DNA of 64,000 nucleotides from the NCBI RefSeq assembly GCF_002025255.2, contig NZ_CP054588.1, forward strand, positions 186,001-250,000. Reading direction: 5' to 3'. The DNA is from Halolamina sp. CBA1230 (lineage in GTDB: Archaea > Halobacteriota > Halobacteria > Halobacteriales > Haloferacaceae). The notes under the pieces are model-generated. The model ran no database searches. It had not been told where the DNA came from and saw nothing but the letters and a program-made list of their open reading frames with translations. Position 1 is the first letter of the stretch, and each line of letters starts with the position of its first letter. Both the position numbers and the translations under genes were made by a program. This document shows positions 57,791 through 60,672 of this stretch, piece after piece.

Positions 57791-58159
57791 TCAGTCGCTC
57801 CCGCAGAGCTCCTCGCGTAACGCGTCGGCCACTTCCGGGCAGTTCTCCCGGATCACGGGCCAGTCGGTGTCGACGAACTCGTCGACGCGTTCGGCGACTA
57901 CCTCCTCGACGGCGTCGCGGTCGGCCTGATCAAGGTGTTCGGTCTGTCGTAAGTACTGGCGCTCCCGTGGGGTGAGCAGACCACCCCCGTCGGGTGCGGC
58001 GACACGCTCCATCCCGTACGCCCGCCGGGACGGCACCGTCTCGGAGAGCCGCGCCGCCAGGCGTTCGGGGGAGTGTGCGGTCGGTCGATCCACCATCTCG
58101 CGGTCGGGCCTATCGCCGGCGTCGGCGCCGCTGTCGGCCGCTGAATCGTCTGGAGCCAT
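57791..58159 (-). CDS. Conserved-type acidic protein, unknown function
   Basis: 122 residues from ATG 58159 (MAPDDS). A disordered acidic start gives way to helices: ERLAARLSETVPSRRAYGME, LTPRERQYLRQTEHLDQADR and AVEEVVAERVDEFVDTDWPV, ending in NCPEVADALREELCG with two cysteines. It looks like a haloarchaeal helical protein; no family is recognised. It overlaps no neighbour and is convergent with tspO. It could be a single gene. Confidence 0.65.
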   Translation of the reverse strand: MAPDDSAADSGADAGDRPDREMVDRPTAHSPERLAARLSETVPSRRAYGMERVAAPDGGGLLTPRERQYLRQTEHLDQADRDAVEEVVAERVDEFVDTDWPVIRENCPEVADALREELCGSD

Positions 58160-58286: not shown

Positions 58287-59219
58287 CTACCGGTCGTCGA
58301 GCATGGCGAGGCTGGAGTCGATGGAGCGATCGAGCACCATCTCCGCCTCGTTGGTGTGGGGCGCGTCGAACTTCACGAGTTCGTCGAGCGCGCGCTCGGC
58401 GGTGTCGACGTAGGCCTCGATCACCGTCGGGAGGTTCACCGAGTCGCGGGCGATGAACTCCGCGGCGACCGAGCCGAGGGTGGCGGCCTCGTTACAGAGC
58501 CGGCTGCACTGGGCCATCTCCGGCCCCTGCTCGATACAGCGGTCCGAGCACCAGGCCGCGACCTGGCTCACGTCGATACAGTCGTCGAGGCAGTCCCGGG
58601 CCGCCTCCGAGAGGTGGTCGACGAACGCCTCGGGGTAGATCCCCGAGGCCTGGCTGGTGAGCTGTCCCTGCACCGTGCCCGCGTCGTCGCCGGTCGCTGG
58701 AGCGGTGCTGCTCGGGTCGGCCTGCGCGCCAGCGCCGGCGCCGCCGAACTGGGGCTGCCCCGCGAACGCCTGGCTGCCCGTCGGGACGCCGACGGCGAAC
58801 GGCGCCTGTGGCGTGTACGTGTTCGCCGTCGGCTGCTGCCCGATCCCCGGCTGTTGTGTGAGTGCCTGCTGTCCGGCCAGCTGGGGGAACTGCTGGCTCG
58901 TCGGCTGTTGGGCGACCTGCTGCTGGGCTGCCGGCTGCTGTCCCGCAGGCAGCTGGCCGGCCGGCTGCCCGAACTGTTGCCCCGTCGCCTGCTGTTGGGG
59001 CTGGTTCGGCTGGTTTTCAGTCGTCGGGTTCTGTTGAGTGGGGTTCTGGGGGTTCTGCTGTAGGTTCTGCGGGTTTGGGGGATTCTGTTGTGGGTTCTGC
59101 TGTGGGTTCTGTTGCGCCGGATCCTGCTGTCGCTGCTGGGAACGCGTCCGCTCGCGTCGTGCTCGTCGTTCTGTCCGATCCCGTTCGCGTCGGTCCCGCT
59201 GTCGTCGTCGTTCAGTCAT
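58287..59219 (-). CDS. Q/N/P-rich protein with C-terminal Csp-like cysteine four-helix bundle
   Basis: 310 residues. Residues 1-30 are Arg/Glu-rich, 31-135 are almost only Gln, Asn and Pro (QQNPQQNP repeats), and 136-190 are Gly/Ala/Thr/Gln-rich. The last 115 residues are helical with three CxxxC pairs (Cys210/214, 224/228, 238/242), the spacing of cytosolic copper-storage (Csp, DUF326) four-helix bundles. LPTVIEAYVDTAERALDELV follows. A low-complexity tract of this kind is rare in acidic haloarchaeal proteins and could drive self-association. Copper or other metal sequestration is inferred from the cysteine pattern only. It is divergent from the TraB-like gene. Confidence 0.75.
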   Translation of the reverse strand: MTERRRQRDRRERDRTERRARRERTRSQQRQQDPAQQNPQQNPQQNPPNPQNLQQNPQNPTQQNPTTENQPNQPQQQATGQQFGQPAGQLPAGQQPAAQQQVAQQPTSQQFPQLAGQQALTQQPGIGQQPTANTYTPQAPFAVGVPTGSQAFAGQPQFGGAGAGAQADPSSTAPATGDDAGTVQGQLTSQASGIYPEAFVDHLSEAARDCLDDCIDVSQVAAWCSDRCIEQGPEMAQCSRLCNEAATLGSVAAEFIARDSVNLPTVIEAYVDTAERALDELVKFDAPHTNEAEMVLDRSIDSSLAMLDDR

Positions 59220-59522
59220 GGTGTCACGTCCGGTCGTCCGGACGGGAGAACGTGTCTCGCCGGGGGGAGAAAAACCGGCGCGATAGTTAATGCGGATTCA
59301 GCAGTATCGGTGCTTCTAACCCGTGTTGAGGAGGTATTAGGAACGAACACCGATCGACGAAATACGGGACTACCGAGAGTGGCTCACACACTCACATAGA
59401 TGTCTATCAGAGAATATATACCTCCCTTCGAGCCGATGGATCGTCCTACTCCCGGTCGGCTCGCCGTCGACGGTCGGGGAGCGACCACCCTTGAACGGGT
59501 TGGCCCTCGAAGCCGGGGCGCT

Positions 59523-60384: not shown

Positions 60385-60672
60385 ATGACCCCCCGAAGCG
60401 CGACCGAGTTCACGCCCGAAGACGAGGGGAAACGGGTCGTCACCACCAGCGGCGACGTGGTGGGCGAGGTCGTCCGTTGTGAGGACGGCACCGCGTTCGT
60501 CCGCCCGCGCCGGGAGCTGGTGGTCGGCTACGGCTCGCGACTCACTGGCTGCTGGGATCCGTCGGAGCTGTTCCCGCTCGACGGCTCGGCGGTCGTCGCC
60601 GACGCGGAGGGCCGGATACAGATCAAACCCGAGGAGCGAGCTGAATCCGGACCGGTGGCGAGACCGAAGTGA
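60385..60672 (+). CDS. PRC-barrel-like small protein
   Basis: 95 residues. EDEGKRVVTTSGDVVGEVVR is the usual first part of a PRC-barrel, followed by GTAFVRPRRELVVG, a turn with CWDPSELFPL, and VVADAEGRIQI. Same kind of protein as at 16582, but longer. It is 67 bases after the TraB-like gene and could be in the same transcript. Function unknown. Confidence 0.7.
   Translation: MTPRSATEFTPEDEGKRVVTTSGDVVGEVVRCEDGTAFVRPRRELVVGYGSRLTGCWDPSELFPLDGSAVVADAEGRIQIKPEERAESGPVARPK

Follow-up and report, generated by a model that had tools for sequence, protein, structure and literature searches.

Haloarchaeal four-helix bundles related to copper-storage proteins, with glutamine-rich tails and few cysteines

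The cytosolic copper-storage proteins of the Csp3 type (MtCsp3, BsCsp3, and SlCsp3; DUF326, PF03860) are four-helix bundles that form tetramers and have histidine at the mouth of the bundle (PMC5171941), the mouth being the route of Cu(I) into and out of the protein (PMC5171941, PMC10155185). Not all members are classical: RkCsp3 is missing the mouth ligands but has retained its core and can bind 18 Cu(I) (PMC10155185). Here we describe a Csp3-like bundle with a long glutamine-rich tail from the haloarchaeon Halolamina sp. CBA1230, together with the family to which it belongs. We found no description of this tailed branch in the open-license literature searched, which also yielded nothing on haloarchaea with glutamine-rich or four-helix bundle proteins; the word haloarchaea is absent from a paper treating low-complexity domains in all forms of life.

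The Halolamina gene, its bundle, and its tail

The window (the whole stretch of DNA that we analyzed, 64,000 nucleotides of contig NZ_CP054588.1) contains a single ORF matching positions 58287 to 59219. It runs on the minus strand from an ATG at 59219 to a stop codon at 58287-58289, and its features are as follows:

58287..59219, minus strand: whole ORF (310 aa), a Q-rich-tailed four-helix-bundle protein, probably Csp3 derived
59281..59323, minus strand: upstream block, a likely promoter, kept in four Halolamina species (CGGGTTAGAA ... AACTATCG)
59124..59219, minus strand: Arg/Glu-rich N-terminal segment, residues 1-32; modeled as a helix (pLDDT 83-87) and rich in Arg in each of the four Halolamina orthologues
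58821..59141, minus strand: Gln/Pro/Asn-rich low-complexity tract, residues 27-133, predicted disordered from residue 33
58656..58820, minus strand: Ala/Gly/Thr-rich disordered linker between the Q tract and the bundle, residues 134-188 (pLDDT 32-46 over most of it)
58293..58631, minus strand: Csp-type four-helix bundle, residues 197-309, with a short leading helix at 197-202 (pLDDT mostly 93-98)
58494..58592, minus strand: three CX3C pairs, C210/C214 and C224/C228 on helix 1 and C238/C242 on helix 2
58356..58358, minus strand: His288, at the start of helix 4, aligning with a Csp3 mouth His

The gene is present in four of seven same-genus genomes, including that of Halolamina rubra CBA1107; the other three gave no match. 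By sequence measures it is a real gene, because the four species retain the domain at 67 to 79% identity, domain dN is lower than dS in every pair of Halolamina orthologues, and the upstream block is conserved. A viral origin is unsupported: phage records gave no match.

AlphaFold2 modeled the domain as a four-helix bundle with a pLDDT of 94, and the bundle is retained in the full-length model. A profile of the window domain and its relatives matched Csp3 (5fig) at E = 7.2e-16, along with other Csp3 and Csp1 proteins; as a single query against Csps, the window domain gave only E = 0.4. Csp3 was also the top structural match by both Foldseek (E = 3.4e-4; TM, 0.8) and VIA (Z, 18.2; rmsd, 1.7; 114 residues aligned). 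The top VIA rows were all Csp type, with Z descending from 18.2 to 14.2, and the first unrelated row scored 11.5. The profile E value, the confident model, and the structural ranking together make homology of the window domain to the cytosolic copper-storage proteins well supported, and the Csp-like bundle proposed by the first-pass annotation is thereby borne out. Neither Pfam nor NCBIfam matched the window domain, and a DUF326 family search of the Halolamina genome found no match; Cys-rich sequences aligned with the window domain do match DUF326. The window protein used alone as a query found no match in genome contigs; a narrower family alignment did.

The bundle has six cysteines, arranged in the three CxxxC pairs noted at first reading within what the model resolves as four helices, and none lies on helix 3 or 4. 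A storage core, by comparison, has 13 to 19 cysteines distributed over all four helices. Only one residue remains of the classical Csp3 three-His mouth motif (α3-loop-α4): H100 (in domain numbering, to which 188 is added for the full protein), with F96 and A98 replacing the others. In the model, C36/C40 end helix 1, C50/C54 start helix 2, and H100 starts helix 4, which places all five at one end of the bundle, a grouping read from helix positions rather than from measured distances; the further CX3C pair of the window protein sits at the opposite end of helix 1. Sequence and model thus point to the absence of the thiolate storage core, with a small mouth site still possible.

The first 26 residues are 54% Arg. 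The tract at residues 27-133 consists of 38% Q, 17% P, and 10% N and has three charged residues, confirming the low-complexity tail as first described; QQNP units occupy residues 38-65. The densest 80 residues contain 42 Q+N, compared with 15 for the runner-up among window ORFs of 100 aa or longer. Across 725 kb of DNA surrounding relatives in other haloarchaea, ORFs with at least 18 Q+N per 80 residues were all tailed relatives or other Q-rich ORFs. Within the Halolamina genome, where Q content was checked by DNA pattern and in selected stretches, CAG clusters occurred in the window gene and at a few other sites; two other such stretches held no Q/N-rich ORF, and a search with the tail found nothing beyond the gene's own sequence apart from one match at chance level. 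Gln is encoded by 41 CAG and 7 CAA codons in the window tail, which has no Met past the start.

We compared the tail with three properties of prion-like domains: Q/N richness (at least 30 per 80 residues), lack of ordered structure, and conserved composition. At 42 per 80, the tail is well above the first threshold. The full-length model has a helix at residues 3-32 and predicts no secondary structure for residues 33-190 (pLDDT mostly 32-57). All four Halolamina orthologues have an Arg-rich start followed by a Q/P/A-rich tail, with lengths of 188 to 245 aa, and Q makes up a stable 27 to 32% of the tail beyond residue 45 despite mutual tail identities of 42 to 62%. The prion-like label proposed earlier therefore fits in composition, but the 17% proline argues against amyloid. 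Likewise, the QQNP description is half right: as judged from the sequences, Gln is conserved in the orthologue tails, and Asn is species specific (nine beyond residue 45 in the window species versus zero to three in the other Halolamina orthologues). The first-pass annotation had suggested checking orthologues for the tail, and had named tailless orthologues and a bundle lacking metal binding as findings that would count against it. Every same-genus genome with the gene keeps the tail, which speaks for the original idea; the bundle is without most storage ligands, which speaks against it.

A tailed, cysteine-poor family across haloarchaea

Relatives were gathered from 148 and 392 genomes as well as from named genomes. 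The first set comprised 129 distinct domains, 56 with 2 to 9 cysteines and 73 with 13 to 17. A query with the Halorussus vallis protein WP_253520316.1, which is a relative lacking cysteine and is annotated as hypothetical, had matches in 63 genomes of 17 genera, and the frames listed were all at least 179 aa long. In the enlarged set, a Q-rich tail (at least 6 Gln in 40 residues) is found on 73 of 76 Cys-poor domains (0 to 9 Cys) and on none of the 73 Cys-rich domains (13 to 17 Cys). The three exceptions are L038:706-1407 and L045, whose tails are weakly Q-rich, and L041, for which the reading frame upstream is in doubt; one low-cysteine row, L268, is a partial frame. Q-rich tails occur at one or both ends of the bundle, and at both ends in most genera. 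Conservation of the tail, and its trade against cysteines, are well supported by sequence across the family. What had looked like a new combination in one odd gene belongs instead to a haloarchaeal family of at least 17 genera. The designation as a metal-storage protein does not hold up: the window protein has 6 cysteines against 13 to 19 in storage Csps, helices 3 and 4 have none, and the tail accompanies Cys loss family-wide.

These distributions bear on whether the tail could be a drifting repeat expansion without function. Tail length varies even within Halolamina (188 to 245 aa), partner residues vary as well (Q is combined with G/M or H/Y in other genera), and three of seven Halolamina genomes gave no match, all of which would suit drift. 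We consider it improbable nonetheless, because Q-rich tails divide so sharply between Cys-poor and Cys-rich domains and stand at both ends in most genera, and because tandem repeats in the window DNA are weak only.

In a phylogenetic tree, a single 100/100 branch parts tailed from untailed domains. Near-complete Cys loss took at least two events, with tails retained; where the long Halolamina branch attaches within the tailed side is uncertain. Tailed genera span at least five family-level groups and include Halolamina, Natrinema, Halorussus, and Haladaptatus. Bacterial Csp3s are Cys-rich; taking them as the outgroup, the likely direction is that the tail was gained and cysteines were lost. 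A sample of the phylum (295 genomes) gave no match outside the order. Nothing in that sample, where all matches fall within one order, pointed to an origin of the tailed clade in bacteria or in other archaea.

Several members extend the range of forms within the family. Cys-free bundle domains with Q-rich tails are encoded at L230:5878-6468, L233:1276-1959, and L269:2533-3225. Haladaptatus has a second Cys-poor tailed paralogue near the first (L035:656-1600, L038:706-1407, and L039:1990-2664). A protein from another genus of the same family (G093, L262:2743-4113) has two cysteines and a Q-rich N-terminal tail of more than 300 residues.

C224/C228 and C238/C242 are a near-invariant quartet of the tailed clade: among the 56 tailed domains of the first set, C36 is retained in 54, C40 in 51, C50 in 53, C54 in 55, and H100 in 51, while C22, C26, C82, C86, and C111 are the ligands most widely lost. 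Substitutions within the quartet include C36 to Ser in G050 (Halolamina) and C40 to Met in the L044 group. Since four cysteines and one histidine are kept in 51 to 55 of 56 domains, the sequences suggest a continuing importance of metal or redox chemistry for most tailed members. The same near invariance favors low-capacity copper or zinc handling, in which the mouth CX3C/CX3C/His set would take up and hand on one or a few ions, with the tail only tethering or localizing the protein. The role of the mouth as the point of Cu(I) entry and exit in Csp3 (PMC5171941, PMC10155185) is consistent with this explanation, as is the Met content of Halorussus and Natrinema tails (often 5 to 13%), Met being a possible Cu(I) ligand. 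We nevertheless regard it as doubtful, because members with zero to two cysteines retain their tails, the same-genus G050 protein has Ser at C36, the window tail offers no Met, and no metal genes were noticed beside the window gene.

Because Cys-free members keep their tails, the sequences identify tail plus bundle, not metal storage, as the conserved unit. We favor, with a probability of roughly 0.5, an oligomeric hub that displays self-associating disordered Q-rich arms and acts as a scaffold or condensate. In this mechanism, a haloarchaeal Csp3 branch would have gained long Q-rich disordered tails and shed most of its copper-binding cysteines. The bundle would be an oligomeric hub, by analogy with Csp3 tetramers, and each particle would show several Q-rich arms, which by associating with similar tails would build a cytoplasmic scaffold or condensate. 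The Halolamina arm has at its end an Arg/Glu-rich helix, which could hold nucleic acid or another polyanion. A putative residual mouth site (two CX3C pairs plus His288) perhaps binds one or a few Cu(I) or Zn(II) ions, or forms disulfides; it may tune assembly, and several relatives are without it. We consider this the most economical mechanism because Cys-free members keep both arms and fold. Against it stand the retention of the Cys quartet and His described above and the unfavorable proline content of the window tail for amyloid; moreover, disorder and Q-richness alone are no proof of self-association.

Gene neighborhoods

The neighbors of the window gene are a TraB-like gene (under the Pfam cutoff), a short gene conserved in Halolamina, and the following adjoining gene:

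60385..60672, plus strand: small PRC-barrel-like gene, assigned via relatives, with no Pfam match of its own

Each genome has two to six PRC-barrel-like genes, yet in four of the six genera compared (represented by g16, G358, G392, and Halolamina) such genes lie within ~2.5 kb of the tailed gene; the proximity is absent in Natrinema. With so few copies, chance is an unlikely cause of such adjacency, but we treat it as no more than a lead, and it gives no function. No conserved operon was found beyond the genus Halolamina. Downstream of the window gene, positions 57791-58159 (minus strand) encode a 122-aa protein that is conserved in Halolamina and has no Pfam match.

In some genomes, Q-rich, Dps-like, PRC-barrel, or DUF5789 genes, with a presumed stress role, lie near the tailed gene. 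They would be in keeping with a hydrophilin-like stress protectant whose Q/G/P-rich tails hold water or solubility in saturated brine or during drying, with the bundle as a passive carrier; tails that are disordered, almost uncharged, and rich in Q and G would suit such a role. We think this unlikely, since the bundle fold and Cys quartet are conserved more than a passive carrier requires and the Halolamina Arg/Glu helix is left unexplained.

In G421, the tailed bundle gene is surrounded by genes for Q-rich-tailed helical, CBS-domain, and ferritin-like proteins and by a pure Q-repeat ORF, as expected if such proteins share tail-tail association; a pure Q-repeat ORF also adjoins the tailed gene in G425, G392, and G358. 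Q-rich neighbor clusters of this kind occur in few genomes, and none was found around the Halolamina gene. By extension of the hub reading, haloarchaea might have a dedicated set of Q-tailed proteins, made up of the Csp-derived bundles joined in some genomes by ferritin-like, CBS-domain, and helical proteins, that co-assemble via their tails into a membraneless compartment, with the former copper-storage bundle as oligomeric core; we offer this as a speculative idea that may well be wrong.

The Q-tailed cluster of G421 (contig C12, L073:6164-14272) includes a phasin-like helical ORF and has HalOD1 and DUF5789 genes nearby. An RDPxTGxF motif occurs near the ends of Q-repeat proteins L131:8372-9418, L132:7485-8414, L068:4027-4749, and L070:10050-10727, two of which adjoin tailed bundle genes. 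The protein encoded at L138:4075-5880 (G313) is unrelated to the tailed bundles; it begins with a signal-like stretch and contains NVNV...NAAxGAAQGAV repeats.

Comparison with known systems

With Csp3, the window protein shares the four-helix bundle, profile homology, CX3C pairs on helices 1 and 2, and one mouth His. It differs in having 6 cysteines, none on helices 3 and 4, versus 18 or 19 in MtCsp3 and BsCsp3; in the replacement of two of the three mouth His; in its 188-aa N-terminal tail with a Q-rich tract; and in a domain that alone is unmatched by Pfam and NCBIfam. RkCsp3, like the haloarchaeal branch, is missing ligands relative to classical Csp3s, but in the haloarchaeal branch the pattern is reversed: mouth-end cysteines are kept and the rest are lost. 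The closest untailed relatives are haloarchaeal proteins annotated as "four-helix bundle copper-binding protein" (~120 aa, 13 to 17 Cys), with ~28 to 38% identity over most of the window domain; unlike it, they have the full Cys set and no tail and fall on the opposite side of the 100/100 branch. No untailed Csp was found in the window genome. The tail resembles eukaryotic prion-like Q/N-rich domains in being Q/N-rich (42 per 80), low in charge, and predicted to be disordered; it differs in being proline-rich, in being attached to an archaeal relative of a metal-protein fold, and in an Asn content that the orthologues do not share.

If our reading is right, a metal-storage fold has been turned to other use within one archaeal order, its cysteines traded for Q-rich tails, up to and including Cys-free members, and the automatic name "four-helix bundle copper-binding protein" could be misleading for many family members. 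Because Q-rich prion-like tails are thought to be mainly eukaryotic and the haloarchaeal cytoplasm is near salt saturation, the tailed family makes assembly driven by Q-rich tails under such conditions directly testable.
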